IMG/VR virus record: IMGVR_UViG_3300022925_000057
Span: 1-39,504 of that record
Direction: 5' to 3' (one strand)
From: a virus
DNA length: 39,504 nt
Shown: piece after piece, positions 24,176-29,786 of the stretch
How the letters are laid out: each line of letters opens with the position of its first letter
Numbering within the stretch: the stretch's first letter is position 1
Notes under the pieces: model-generated
Databases searched by the model: none
Seen by the model: the letters and a program-made list of their open reading frames with translations, nothing else
Told to the model about the DNA's origin: nothing
Program-made: the position numbers and the translations under genes

Positions 24176-25509
24176 TATTGTCCTTTAGTGAAGTTCATTC
24201 CATAAGAATCACGAATCAAATTCATTGATGTTGTCGATTTATTTGGTTCGAAATGATGATGTAGTGCTTGAATTATATAGCTGCCACTCTGCACCTCATC
24301 AGGTCCTTGTTCCTTATCTTTTGAGTTAGATTCAATTTCTAACTTAATTAGAGTTCCTGCCTCAAGATCTGTGTTGCAAGGTATGGTTGCGGCATGAACC
24401 TGAGAGAACAAAATATTATATCTGGTGCTACCAGCAGCATAATATAATTCAGGACTATTGTTTATCTCTGTCGTAGCTGCCTCTGCACCAACATCAAAGA
24501 CTGCTGATTGAATCCTGTGATATTTTTTACCACCCTTTCCACCAAATAGAAATGGTGGTGGTGACTCTTTTTTACCCAGAGATGAAAACTTAGGATCTTG
24601 AGTAAGTTTCTTATCTTCCACAGTAATATCAATCTCAGTGAATCCTAGTGTTGATGGATTGAAAAAAACGTTTTTAGAAGAATAAACACCAGAGCGAATT
24701 TGTGCTAAGAGACTTTGATCTTTCAAAGTATCAAATGCTGCTACCTTGAAATCATTCTCATCATTTTTCTGTTGTTCAGATGCAATAACTTGTCCTGTAT
24801 ATCGATACGTTTTCTGAAAAGGTTCTTGATTAATCAAAGTATCTGCTGAGATATAATTAAATCCACTTCTCGTCTCAAAGAAAAAATATCCTGGATTTGA
24901 AATATTAGAAGGGACACTTCTAATACAAAGCATGGCAATTAAATCCAACGGTCTCTTGTTCATTCCTATAAAGGAATAAGAGTTACTAGACGGATCTATT
25001 TTTATCTTACTATCTTCAAATGACAATTCATCTTTTAATATCTTTTTGACAGAATCACTTATCTTACCAGTGTATCTTTTTGTTATCTTATTAGTTTCAT
25101 TCAACCATGCGGTTCTTGATGAGAATCTAATTTTCAGATTTTCAGATGTAGAAGATTTACTCAATACTTGTACATCTGTTACATAGAGTTTTTTATATTC
25201 ATCACTTTCTACCGAAAAATCTAGTCCTGCACCAAGTTCATTTTTTACTTTCACGAGCATTTGACAACCAGCACGTAATGGCAACGAACTGTGCAGTGAA
25301 CCGTCTCTTTCTTGCTTATCATCTTTTGATTTCGCAGCACCTGAGGTGCTACTAATGATTACCGTTCCAGTAATAAAGGGTGATAGAATATTTTCATAAT
25401 AATCAAAATTTGTCACTCTGAATTGTCCTTGAGCAATATCAGCTCGATTCTGTCCATCAGGAGATAAGATTATAAATTTTTCGTATATTACGCCTTGAGC
25501 TGCTGACAT
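24175..25509 (-). CDS. 27: Baseplate hub protein gp27-like
   Basis: A 444-residue protein of the gp27 hub type: N-terminus YEKFIILSPDGQNRADIA, then QFRVTNFDYYENILSPFI, with a HHHFEPN element near the C-terminus. gp27 trimers attach the gp5 spike and form the base of the tail tube. The gene directly precedes gp5 with a TAATG overlap, the same neighbour relation as in many T4-like phages. Confidence 0.75.
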   Translation of the reverse strand: MSAAQGVIYEKFIILSPDGQNRADIAQGQFRVTNFDYYENILSPFITGTVIISSTSGAAKSKDDKQERDGSLHSSLPLRAGCQMLVKVKNELGAGLDFSVESDEYKKLYVTDVQVLSKSSTSENLKIRFSSRTAWLNETNKITKRYTGKISDSVKKILKDELSFEDSKIKIDPSSNSYSFIGMNKRPLDLIAMLCIRSVPSNISNPGYFFFETRSGFNYISADTLINQEPFQKTYRYTGQVIASEQQKNDENDFKVAAFDTLKDQSLLAQIRSGVYSSKNVFFNPSTLGFTEIDITVEDKKLTQDPKFSSLGKKESPPPFLFGGKGGKKYHRIQSAVFDVGAEAATTEINNSPELYYAAGSTRYNILFSQVHAATIPCNTDLEAGTLIKLEIESNSKDKEQGPDEVQSGSYIIQALHHHFEPNKSTTSMNLIRDSYGMNFTKGQ

Positions 25510-27101
25510 TATGGTATGTTATGAAGAGGACTTAATTTGTTCCCACTCTTATTTACCCCGGCACCACTAGAAACGGGAACCTGAACAGTGACTGGGACAA
25601 CTCTTTCAACCTCAATCGGCATGACAATAACATCACTTGTTCCTTCAGTATCCTTTGGAACTGGTATATTGTCACCAGAAATTTTTGGTTTTGAAGAAGA
25701 TATGTTGCTATTTCTACTTGCACCTCTTCCAATTGCAACATTGATTGAAGTTGGCATGACTGCTTCATATGCCGCCGCAAATTGATTATCAGCATTTGTT
25801 CCAGATCTTCCACCCAGAGTAACACCAACACAACCAGCAGTTCCATTATCACCAATGTCATTGTGAACTAAAAGTTGACTTCTGTTTCCAATAGAACCAG
25901 ACATATTATTAATATAAGCACTCCAAACACCAATCCCCGCCATGTATCCATGTTTTTGGAATCCCGTCAGAGGATAGCGTCCGTCTGGTAGTGGATATAA
26001 AGCACCAGAAACACTTGCTCTTTGTTCTTGTGTTGTTCCAGCAGTTCCATATGTTCCGCTGATTGCACTCCAACTACCGATTTTCTTTCCACTAGCATCT
26101 TTTAAAGTTAATGTTCCAGAGGCACCATCACCACTACCGATAAAGTCAAGACTTCCTCCAGGCTGAATAGGACCTGATGCGATTGGTACATTATCTCCAC
26201 TGGATGTTGGTTTTTGTCCCGTTGGCGTTGGACTACCACCTGTTTTTTTACTGCCAGGTTGTAGTGTTTTTACCAGTTTTTTGAAGGAGTCAACATTTTC
26301 TTTATAAAGTCCTGCTATTTCAGTATTTTGTGTAGAAACAGCAGAGAACCTCTTAAGTGCATTGTTTGTATTGGTGCTAGATGTACTCCTTCTCGGTTGT
26401 CTATTTGGTTGAGTTGTTCTAAGAACCGTGCCACCACTATTTCTCCTTTGCATTGGAGGTGTAGACATAGGAGTTGGTGTTGGCATATCCGAACCAACGG
26501 TATCACCAATTCTGATGACACTCCCATCAGGCATTATGTTAGGGTCGTTAGCACTTCTTTCAGTTTGTTCATACCCCTCTAGTGTGGACACTTCAACATC
26601 CAATTCTCTTTCTAGGGATTGAAGTTCTTTTTGATTTGCATCAAGTTCTTGTTGCGCTTGTCCAGGATTAAAAAGGTTTGTAATTCCTTCAAAGGCAAAC
26701 TTAATTCCATTGAAAACAAATCCTAGTGTTTTGAATGCTCCATCCCAAATAGGTTTAATCGTTCTGTATACTTCCGTTGCTTTCTCCACAATCTCTGGAA
26801 GTTTAGTAACTAAGTAACCCGTTATTAAATATCCACCAGAATTTAAAACCTTATCAAAGAAACTTCCAGCAACTCCTTTGATACCACCAAGAACTCTTCC
26901 TATAGGTCCTGGTACTCCAGGAACTTTTTCTATTTTCTTTTCTGCCTTTAATCTTTTTTCTTGTTGTGTTTCTTTTCTTACTAACGCACTCTTTTGTGAT
27001 TCAAACTTCCTCAGTTTCTTGTTCTGAGAAAGAAGAACACTCTTTATATTAGTGACATTTAGTTTTAGTTGTTCTACCTGTTCTACTTGTTTAGTTTCCA
27101 T
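25509..27101 (-). CDS. Tail protein with Tlde1/L,D-transpeptidase-like domain, 530 aa
   Basis: Residues 1-60 are a charged coiled coil and about 70-145 a hydrophobic membrane-like segment, similar in layout to the next gene. Residues about 318-460 resemble a DUF2778/L,D-transpeptidase-type fold: SGTLTLKDASGKKIGSWSA, LPDGRYPL, then LLVHNDIGDNGTAGCVGV, giving H413 and C424 as the likely catalytic pair. Such domains cut or exchange peptidoglycan crosslinks. Located between tape-measure-like and hub genes, it could help the tail breach the cell wall. Linkers (residues 200-320) are Pro/Ser/Thr-rich. Confidence 0.7.
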   Translation of the reverse strand: METKQVEQVEQLKLNVTNIKSVLLSQNKKLRKFESQKSALVRKETQQEKRLKAEKKIEKVPGVPGPIGRVLGGIKGVAGSFFDKVLNSGGYLITGYLVTKLPEIVEKATEVYRTIKPIWDGAFKTLGFVFNGIKFAFEGITNLFNPGQAQQELDANQKELQSLERELDVEVSTLEGYEQTERSANDPNIMPDGSVIRIGDTVGSDMPTPTPMSTPPMQRRNSGGTVLRTTQPNRQPRRSTSSTNTNNALKRFSAVSTQNTEIAGLYKENVDSFKKLVKTLQPGSKKTGGSPTPTGQKPTSSGDNVPIASGPIQPGGSLDFIGSGDGASGTLTLKDASGKKIGSWSAISGTYGTAGTTQEQRASVSGALYPLPDGRYPLTGFQKHGYMAGIGVWSAYINNMSGSIGNRSQLLVHNDIGDNGTAGCVGVTLGGRSGTNADNQFAAAYEAVMPTSINVAIGRGASRNSNISSSKPKISGDNIPVPKDTEGTSDVIVMPIEVERVVPVTVQVPVSSGAGVNKSGNKLSPLHNIP

Positions 27102-27104
27102 TTA

Positions 27105-28892
27105 TCACACCCCGAATATTCCAAACTGTCTCTTGATGAACTCCACATAGAAGTTATCAGGATCTTCAGCATCATATGTTTGAATTGAATCTCCTCCTGC
27201 TGGTTTAGCAGTCTGAGCGGAAGATGGTGTCTGACTCCTTGATGTAGGAATCATTGGCAGTGTTGTAATTTTGCCTTCCTTCTTGTCCAGTTTTGTGTTT
27301 ACTTTTGCTGCCGAACTTGATGGAGTAGGAGTAATGTTTGATTTCTGTGGTGATGGTGGAGTTGGCGTTGGCGTAGATTTTAATAGTGGGTTTTTATCAG
27401 CAAACTGTCTTGCTGTCAGCATACTCAGTGCTAACTTGAATTCTTTATTAGTTTCTATAAGTTTCTTATTAGTATCTTCTTGTTCTTCTAGAGACTTCGC
27501 CATTCCCTTATAGAGTCTCGCACCATCGTAGATAATATCATCCAAGAAAGGACCGAACATTCTACTAGATTTTCTTGATACAACCTTTTCGCCAGGAGTG
27601 AGCATTACAGACACGCTATCTCTATCAGGTCCACCTCCAGGCACGGTTCCACCTCTATTCATACCCTCTTCAGCGGCAGGATCTTTACTCTTGTTTCCGA
27701 AGAATAAATCATACAGTTTCCTACCAGCAAAGTCTCCAGCGAAACCACCAATAAAGGTTCCAAGAGGTCCACCCAAGAACGTACCAACAGCACCAAGTAA
27801 ACCAGCACCAATGGCACCGAACGCTGCTCTACCAGGATCTTCACCAAGAGCAACAGACAGGGCAAAGTCTAACAATGCACCAACGAATGGTATCCTCTTT
27901 AGGATAGGTCTTGCTAACTTAAGTAATGATTTCTGCAATGTTTTCTGTCCTGGACCCATGCCAAGACTCTTTATAATATTTCTTGAGAACTTCTTGGCAC
28001 TAACCTCAACACCTTGAAGTGCTTTGTTTAGTATACCCTTTTCTCTTTTTATTACATCAACTGTCTGATCATACTTGGTAAATCCACCCAGTCTACTTCT
28101 TCTCGAAAGAGTTCTAGTTTCAGTTGTTCTTGTAACATTAACTCTGCCTCTTCTCTGTCCTGCGGCATTTCGGAATAATCCACCTCTTCCACCTGACGCA
28201 GCTGCAGCGGTTCGTCCACCACGTCCAGTTAAAAATCTAGCAACTCCACGAAGTGCTCTGAATAGTTTTACAATTTTATATACAACACGTCCAATTAATA
28301 CACCACCAATTATTCCAAGAATTAATTTGTAATTCTTTCCTATAAAATCAAAAACACTTTTTACCGTAGATTCATTATCCCTTAACCACTCTAATCCTTT
28401 ATTAACTATAAATCCAGTTAATACAGAACCTAAGAAACCTAATATCTTATCAAAGATACTTTTTGTTGGCGCTAAAACCTTATCGGCAATACGTCCAAGC
28501 GCACTTCCAACTTTCTTTGTACCCTCTGCACCTGATTCTGCTTTGGCTCTATCTGCCTTGTCTGCCGCCTGTCTAATTCTAGCAGTCTGTTCTTGCTCTT
28601 TTGCAATTCTATATGCAAAGTCTAGAGATAATTGTTTCTGTATCTCTACAAGAATATTATTAGTTTCTACTAATGTTTGCTCTATCGGAGTTTTAGGTTT
28701 CTCAAGATATTTCGGATCTACACTAGGACCTCTATGAATACTTCCGTATCCCATACCTCTGGGAACTTTCGTAGCTCCAGAACCAGCAACCTTTGCGGTG
28801 CCACGAAAAACTGACGAGGAAACAGTAGTCTTCCCCAGTTTGGGTTTTGCTGTTAACGATGGTGCCTTAAATGCCTGACTACTGAATACCAT
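27105..28892 (-). CDS. Tape-measure-like tail protein, 595 aa
   Basis: A 595-residue structural protein. Residues about 70-120 form a helical, Gln/Arg-rich coil (EIQKQLSLDFAYRIAKEQEQ), a hydrophobic segment follows (GFLGSVLTGFIVNKGLEWL and LILGIIGGVLIGRVVYK), and a Pro-rich tail ends it. Length is close to T4 gp29 (590), the tape measure, and it directly follows the gp26/-1 frame gene pair, as tape-measure genes do. The assignment is by size and position and not by sequence match. Confidence 0.65.
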   Translation of the reverse strand: MVFSSQAFKAPSLTAKPKLGKTTVSSSVFRGTAKVAGSGATKVPRGMGYGSIHRGPSVDPKYLEKPKTPIEQTLVETNNILVEIQKQLSLDFAYRIAKEQEQTARIRQAADKADRAKAESGAEGTKKVGSALGRIADKVLAPTKSIFDKILGFLGSVLTGFIVNKGLEWLRDNESTVKSVFDFIGKNYKLILGIIGGVLIGRVVYKIVKLFRALRGVARFLTGRGGRTAAAASGGRGGLFRNAAGQRRGRVNVTRTTETRTLSRRSRLGGFTKYDQTVDVIKREKGILNKALQGVEVSAKKFSRNIIKSLGMGPGQKTLQKSLLKLARPILKRIPFVGALLDFALSVALGEDPGRAAFGAIGAGLLGAVGTFLGGPLGTFIGGFAGDFAGRKLYDLFFGNKSKDPAAEEGMNRGGTVPGGGPDRDSVSVMLTPGEKVVSRKSSRMFGPFLDDIIYDGARLYKGMAKSLEEQEDTNKKLIETNKEFKLALSMLTARQFADKNPLLKSTPTPTPPSPQKSNITPTPSSSAAKVNTKLDKKEGKITTLPMIPTSRSQTPSSAQTAKPAGGDSIQTYDAEDPDNFYVEFIKRQFGIFGV

Positions 28893-29061
28893 TCTGTTGT
28901 TGATGCTTCAGGTTTTCCTCTTCAATATACTGTTGGAGTAAGGATACATAGATATCTCTTTCCCACGGTATCATGTTTTCTAACTCTGTTAAAGAGTATT
29001 TATGATGCTGAATCAAGGCAAAATTAGTCTTGTAGTAGTTCTCAAGACTTTCGTGCGCCAT
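28879..29061 (-). CDS. 60-codon ORF in the -1 frame after gp26, tail chaperone GT-like
   Basis: A 60-residue helical product (MAHESLENYYKTNFALIQHH...), whose ATG is preceded by no Shine-Dalgarno. It lies in the -1 frame relative to gp26. A slippery T TTT TTC three codons before the gp26 stop would let ribosomes enter this frame and make a gp26-fusion of 302 residues (239 from gp26, the linker QLA, then this protein). Position between gp26 and a tape-measure-like gene matches the T part of lambda gpG-T. Confidence 0.75.
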   Translation of the reverse strand: MAHESLENYYKTNFALIQHHKYSLTELENMIPWERDIYVSLLQQYIEEENLKHQQQNGIQ

Positions 29062-29090
29062 CGCTAGCTGAAAAAAGACGCCAGTCCCTC
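29026..29090 (-). other. Putative programmed -1 frameshift site of gp26
   Basis: Slippery T TTT TTC at 29070-29076 in the zero-frame phase X XXY YYZ. GAGGGA at 29085-29090 acts as an internal Shine-Dalgarno about 8 nt upstream. A perfect AGTCTTG/CAAGACT stem (29026-29032, 29043-29049) with a 10-nt loop lies 20 nt downstream. Confidence 0.7.
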
Positions 29091-29786
29091 AATTACTACC
29101 TCAGATTCTACACCAGTGTTTGGATTCTTAACCTTTACCGTATGAGATAATCTGGGCATTGTCTCAAAAAAGGTTTCAATATCCTTGAATTGTTTTGTAT
29201 TCATCTGTTCTATGAATCCTTGCAATTCTTTTTTCGTAGAATCTTCTGCACTCCACGATTCCTCTTCATTGTAAATCATATCAATACAAGAGACAATCAC
29301 ATCAAGTGATTTGTCAACGTCACTACTATCATTTGCAGTTTCAAAATTACTTTCTACAAACTGACTGAGTGAAGGATACTTCATCTTGATAGAAAGTTCA
29401 TCGTCCAATTTAATAATGCTCTTGTGTTCAGGATTTTTTTGAACCTCAATTTCATCAATGTCAATTTCTACTTGAACTTGTGTCTCACCATCATCGGGAC
29501 AGGTAAGATTCACTTCGACAGTCTCACCAACAGACTTTGCTCTCACATTGAGGAACAGATACTCAATATCAAAAGTAGAAAGTTCTGGGATTTTAACTCC
29601 TCTTGTCATGACACAATCGGAGAGAACAGTTTTAATCGCACTAGAAATCTGTTTCATATCCTCAGATTCTAGTGCCATGATAAGAATTTTTTCTTCTCTT
29701 ACAAGAAAGGGACGATACTTAATTTTCTTTCCATTTGAAGGCAATACCAACTCATATGTTGGAGTATTAATTTGTGGTAATGGCAT
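29064..29786 (-). CDS. 26: Baseplate hub subunit gp26-like (tape-measure chaperone)
   Basis: A 240-residue protein that matches the T4 gp26-type baseplate protein family in its first 100 residues: PTYELVLPSNGKKIKYRPFL, then REEKILIMALESED, then FDIEYLFLNVRAKSVGE. In T4, gp26 assists baseplate hub assembly. The final codons GCG TCT TTT TTC AGC TAG contain a slippery heptamer in the right phase for -1 frameshifting. A late motif AATAAATA lies 28 nt before the ATG. Confidence 0.8.
   Translation of the reverse strand: MPLPQINTPTYELVLPSNGKKIKYRPFLVREEKILIMALESEDMKQISSAIKTVLSDCVMTRGVKIPELSTFDIEYLFLNVRAKSVGETVEVNLTCPDDGETQVQVEIDIDEIEVQKNPEHKSIIKLDDELSIKMKYPSLSQFVESNFETANDSSDVDKSLDVIVSCIDMIYNEEESWSAEDSTKKELQGFIEQMNTKQFKDIETFFETMPRLSHTVKVKNPNTGVESEVVIEGLASFFS

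Follow-up and report, generated by a model that had tools for sequence, protein, structure and literature searches.

Our results suggest, with a probability of about 0.92, that the virus represented by the window (the whole stretch of DNA analysed here, a 39.5-kb fragment of 39,504 nt from a marine cyanophage) makes a short and a long tail chaperone from gene 26 by −1 frameshifting. A mechanism of the lambda G/GT type is the best explanation for the arrangement of the sequence. Most ribosomes would halt at the TAG stop codon and release the 240-aa short form, and a minority would pause at U UUU UUC, aided by an internal Shine-Dalgarno (SD)-like GAGGG, to which most relatives add a hairpin close by. 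With the tRNA-Phe in both the P and the A site slipping back by one base, translation would run on into a 60-codon ORF and yield a long form of 302 aa. If the roles are those of lambda gpG and gpGT, the short chaperone would coat the tape measure protein, and the additional domain of the long one would bring in subunits of the tube or hub. The slippage itself, its efficiency and the chaperone role are what we infer here.

The features of the locus are collected in Table 1. On the minus strand, the 3′ end of gene 26 reads GAG GGA CTG GCG TCT TTT TTC AGC TAG, and the predicted −1 slip at the heptamer gives F F Q L A M A H E..., with an expected junction peptide ...SFFQLAMAHESLENYYK and a total length of 239 + 3 + 60 = 302 aa. 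The initial annotation had described the end of gp26, the T TTT TTC in X XXY YYZ phase and a 302-residue fusion reached through QLA; all its coordinates were exact to the base, and both the frame and the length of the fusion checked. Its distance of 23 nt between GAGGGA and the ATG of the ORF, which lies at position 29061, was also confirmed.

Table 1. Features of the gene 26/−1 ORF locus and of the neighbouring tail genes in the window
Feature	Position in the window	Strand	Basis
Tail-tube-like gene directly upstream, 266 aa	29818..30618	−	PF23849 Phage_TTP_2, E = 3.6e-19; PHROG 45 tail tube, E = 6e-31
Gene 26 (TAC-N/gpG-like), 240 aa	29064..29786	−	PF12322, PHROG 150; weak Foldseek likeness to HK97 tail assembly chaperone
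SD-like GAGGGA, 8 nt 5′ of the heptamer	29085..29090	−	Sequence; GAG codon preference in relatives
Slippery heptamer T TTT TTC	29070..29076	−	Codons frozen in 99 dereplicated relatives; T TTT TT[C/T/G] at the same site in distant lineages
TAG that ends gene 26 in the 0 frame, one codon past the heptamer	29064..29066	−	Stop spacing conserved in relatives
7-bp stem-loop AGTCTTG/CAAGACT, 20 nt past the heptamer	29026..29049	−	More stable than synonymous-codon null, z about −5.1
−1 frame C-terminal domain ("gp51"; TAC-C/T-like), 60 codons from ATG	28879..29061	−	PHROG 634, PHROG 150; aligns with T4 gp51 C-terminus
Predicted frameshift product (TAC-NC/gpGT-like), 302 aa	complement(join 29786..29070, 29070..28879); span 28879..29786	−	Frame and conservation
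Tape-measure-like gene, 595 aa, overlapping the −1 ORF end	27105..28892	−	Partial matches to PHROG 167 (tail length tape measure; E = 3e-7) and PHROG 1047 (tail associated lysin; E = 3.9e-7)

The tail-tube-like gene is possibly a gp54-type tube initiator. At the other end of the locus, the −1 ORF and the tape-measure-like gene share 14 nt (window 28879-28892, minus strand), an overlap that suggests further translational coupling. Note that the tail region also encodes, at 25509-27101 on the minus strand, a 530-aa protein with a motif, VHNDIGDNGTAGCVGV, that recalls the active sites of L,D-transpeptidases (YkuD). This protein had no convincing Pfam or PHROG match, and could be a cell-wall enzyme in the hub.

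In-phase T TTT TTC occurs three times in the 29 window genes of at least 120 aa, and this occurrence is the one located near a gene end. When the codons of the 29 genes were shuffled, T TTT TTN was expected among the last six codons of 0.10 genes, and any X XXY YYZ in 0.74 genes, so that the window sequence, taken by itself, is only suggestive.

Decisive support for the predicted frameshift came from conservation across relatives. The initial annotation had proposed beforehand, as a test, that the heptamer and the −1 frame should be conserved in them, and this is what was observed. Two IMG/VR scans yielded 160 gp26-like viral loci, some of which are one contig fetched twice; the ORF lies in the −1 frame, at equal distance from the stop, in 160/160. 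T TTT TTC precedes the stop in every distinct junction except that of locus L102, where the gp26 C-terminal stretch, heptamer included, is missing, either through an assembly artefact or through a true deletion. Codons were counted in 99 dereplicated heptamer-bearing sequences (<90% identity); since these sequences are related, neither the codon counts nor the hairpin counts given below represent independent events. The first Phe codon of the heptamer (F238) is TTT in 99/99 and the second (F239) is TTC in 95/97, while TTT makes up about 73% of the Phe codons elsewhere. The codon that precedes this pair is NNT in all 99 sequences, against 60.7 expected. The stop is found 3 nt past the heptamer in 97 of the 99, although which stop codon is used varies. 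Moreover, in all 91 cyanophage-type loci the −1 frame is free of stops over its first 60 nt.

A different reading of the locus treats the 60-codon ORF as a gene in its own right, gp51, whose ATG would be used through translational coupling or re-initiation at the stop of gene 26. Deposited annotations indeed give the ORF as a 'baseplate hub assembly catalyst' of its own, TAATG overlaps without a heptamer occur in some distant Ackermannviridae, and an ATG directly follows the gene 26 stop in 76 of the 91 cyanophage-type relatives, making some independent initiation possible. However, the other 15 have CTG, CTA or CTC at this position or no start codon nearby (no ATG, GTG or TTG in the first four −1 codons), the annotated gp51 starts in P-HM2, Syn19 and Aeromonas phage 65 fall inside the conserved domain, and T4 carries this domain fused in frame. 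Re-initiation also leaves unexplained the frozen T TTT TTC codons and the invariably open −1 frame upstream of the ATG. With the start codons lost in part of the family and the heptamer retained, the independent gp51 gene was rejected, and we regard this explanation as very unlikely.

The frameshift reading is further supported by the sequences that flank the heptamer. The GAGGGA about 8 nt upstream had been proposed as an SD-like stimulator, and this proposal stood: of 92 relatives, 78 use GAG for the Glu in GAGGG, against a GAG share of about 31% in the rest of these genes, an excess that indicates selection of the SD-like element beyond the amino acids that it encodes. In the relatives, the 40 nt past the heptamer were much more structured than either dinucleotide shuffles (mean z −3.3) or synonymous recodings (mean z −4.3). 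In 65 of the 91 cyanophage-type loci an 11-bp hairpin spans positions +6 to +36 (z about −5 against the synonymous-codon null), leaving a spacing from the heptamer of about 5 nt, which is the usual distance. One pair of this hairpin shows compensatory changes, occurring as T-A, A-T or G-C, with the amino acid encoded on the 3′ side shifting accordingly (Glu, Val or Ala), and the Ser in the 3′ arm is encoded by TCA without exception.

The window's own subclade does not have the +6 hairpin and carries instead a weaker, farther stem at +20. This stem-loop, noted in the initial annotation, is present where it was described, but it is a local variant: it is common to the close relatives L011, L025 and L042 and absent from L019, and as a universal element it was rejected, as it was not found across the relatives, most of which carry the different, stronger hairpin at +6. 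Cyanophages with or without the +6 hairpin, and with or without the ATG, represent a natural experiment on frameshift stimulators.

Two other explanations concern the run of T itself. Transcriptional slippage on the U6 run could produce fused-frame mRNAs, and the slip site is a homopolymer of 6-7 T; however, six T are short for polymerase slippage, and both the SD-like element and the conserved hairpin at ribosomal spacing fit slippage by the ribosome, so that we find this possibility hardly credible. That the poly-T is merely a by-product of the Phe-Phe conserved at the gp26 C-terminus has a negligible probability, because the Phe codons of the heptamer are fixed and preceded always by NNT, whereas most other conserved Phe positions in gene 26 switch freely between TTT and TTC.

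Profile searches related gene 26 and the 60-codon ORF to T4 hub proteins. The gene 26 product matches PF12322 (T4_baseplate; E = 3.6e-75, 252.8 bits against a cut-off of 24.5) and PHROG 150 (baseplate hub; E = 1.5e-81). The 60-aa ORF matches positions 60-116 of the 121 in PHROG 634, 'baseplate hub assembly catalyst' (gp51), with E = 9.6e-29, and also positions 239-278, the last 40, of PHROG 150 (E = 1.2e-6), implying that some members of PHROG 150 already hold both parts. An AlphaFold model of gp26 (pLDDT 84.7) was compared with the PDB using Foldseek: the HK97 tail assembly chaperone 2OB9 was the most probable match (probability 0.72), with a non-significant E of 0.64, and 3FGX, which has the same fold, was also listed, again without significance (E = 5.0). 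A sequence search of the PDB gave no match. We take the possible HK97 gp13-like chaperone fold of gp26 as a lead only.

The comparison with T4 clarified what the short ORF may represent. T4 gp26 (208 aa) and gp51 (249 aa) are both full PF12322 proteins, related to each other with a BLASTP E of 2e-6, and full-length gp51 is found in >1,300 records, mostly from enteric phages. T4 gp26 terminates at the point that corresponds to the stop of the frameshift gene, and its end lacks the poly-T heptamer. T4 gp51 is a gp26 paralogue with a C-terminal domain fused in frame; it is to this C-terminus that the window's ORF is homologous, and in alignments the T4 sequence matches the virtual −1 fusion product of other phages through the junction (FFQLAMAHESLENYYK... 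versus VFKLLVNPDEIFTFYQ...). With gp26 being PF12322 alone and gp51 being PF12322 plus the domain, T4 encodes separately the two forms that a single gene would supply in the cyanophage. The window does not contain a stand-alone, full-length gp51 of the T4 kind, which includes a gp26-like N-terminal domain: the window's gp51-like ORF has 60 codons, and the predicted frame change would join it to the N-terminal domain encoded by gene 26.

With T TTT TTC, T TTT TTT or T TTT TTG as the heptamer, the window's arrangement recurs in Schizotequatrovirus R11Z, in Aeromonas phage 65, in Vibrio vB_VmeM-32, in a Nitratidesulfovibrio phage, in Rhizobium and Sinorhizobium phages (Pootjesviridae, Emdodecavirus), in Menderavirus and in many environmental contigs. 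In the Ackermannviridae (VP-1, D506, kutterviruses) the gp51-like domain lies in the −1 frame with no canonical heptamer, and the frameshift claim is not extended to them. Note that some of their loci (L168, L169, L177, L242-L258) have a TAATG overlap, and others TAATT without an ATG. Stenotrophomonas phage IME-SM1 (L176:3208-3240) has five T at the shift site, resulting in an in-frame fusion of 280 aa; L240 has six T and the standard arrangement. We considered IME-SM1 as a +1 variant and rejected this, as it carries a one-base deletion in the T run relative to close relatives, the other Menderavirus records being one base longer over this stretch. The 280-aa reading is probably false and caused by a sequencing error.

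These results tie a predicted frameshift product to T4 genes 26 and 51, and would correct a widespread mis-annotation: the short cyanophage 'gp51, baseplate hub assembly catalyst' would be the tail end of the frameshift product and not a gene. Cyanophage and marine vibriophage gp51 proteins had been described as lacking the first ~200 residues, the cyanophage ones having 20% of the full length (PMC3037559), a length for which the predicted product accounts. In L164, L178, L179, L166 and similar deposited genomes the short 'gp51' is annotated as independent, in some cases with a start inside the conserved domain. Such entries probably belong as joined CDS features.

As a tentative scenario, to which we give somewhat less than even odds, the ancestor of the T4 superfamily would have had one chaperone gene with a U-run −1 frameshift and an SD-like element, accompanied in cyanophages by a covarying hairpin over the position of the ORF start codon; T4 genes 26 and 51 would be the result of a duplication followed by loss of the frameshift, with gp51 fixing the long form. 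If true, this would explain both why T4 stands apart from G/GT frameshifting and why the gp51 of the cyanophages looks 'truncated'. Pieces of this scenario are probably already in Vladimirov et al. 2022.

Finally, the system can be compared with those already known. In the contractile-tailed phage P2, E/E+E′ has an annotated −1 frameshift with an in-phase T TTT TTG, immediately ahead of gene T for the tape measure, as a counterpart of what we predict here; homology between the window's 60-aa ORF and P2 E′ (PF06528) was not detected. The slip site of lambda is G GGA AAG, compared to T TTT TTC in the window. Comparable to the pair predicted here, which has a tail-tube-like and a tape-measure-like neighbour, lambda gpG/gpGT combines a short chaperone with a low-yield −1 extension beside the tube and tape-measure genes (PMC5009743), and such G-T frameshifting has been considered widely conserved in long-tailed phages 'except T4' (PMC5009743), where the roles of genes 26 and 51 in hub assembly have long been called unclear (PMC3004832). 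The initial annotation had offered its G/GT-type reading as not described for T4-like phages. The −1 signal, the SD-like element and the dependence of the ORF on gene 26 held up. The +20 stem turned out to be a local variant, and the supposed novelty was wrong: Vladimirov, Gautam and Davidson (2022, Virology 566:9-15) are reported to have identified the tail assembly chaperone genes of T4-like phages. PMC12846349 attributes to them −1 frameshift signals of the poly-T type in the TAC-N genes of such phages, and PMC10885494 states that some T4-like phages have separate short and long (fused) genes instead. On these accounts, the predicted frameshift chaperone of the window belongs to a kind already known; possibly new are the evidence at codon level, the two stimulators, SD-like and hairpin, and the breadth across taxa. 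The chaperones of Vladimirov et al. 2022 are, going by the papers that cite them, apparently the same system as that of the window, in which one gene with a predicted frameshift would provide the short and long forms that T4 obtains, without a frameshift, from the two divergently oriented genes 26 and 51.
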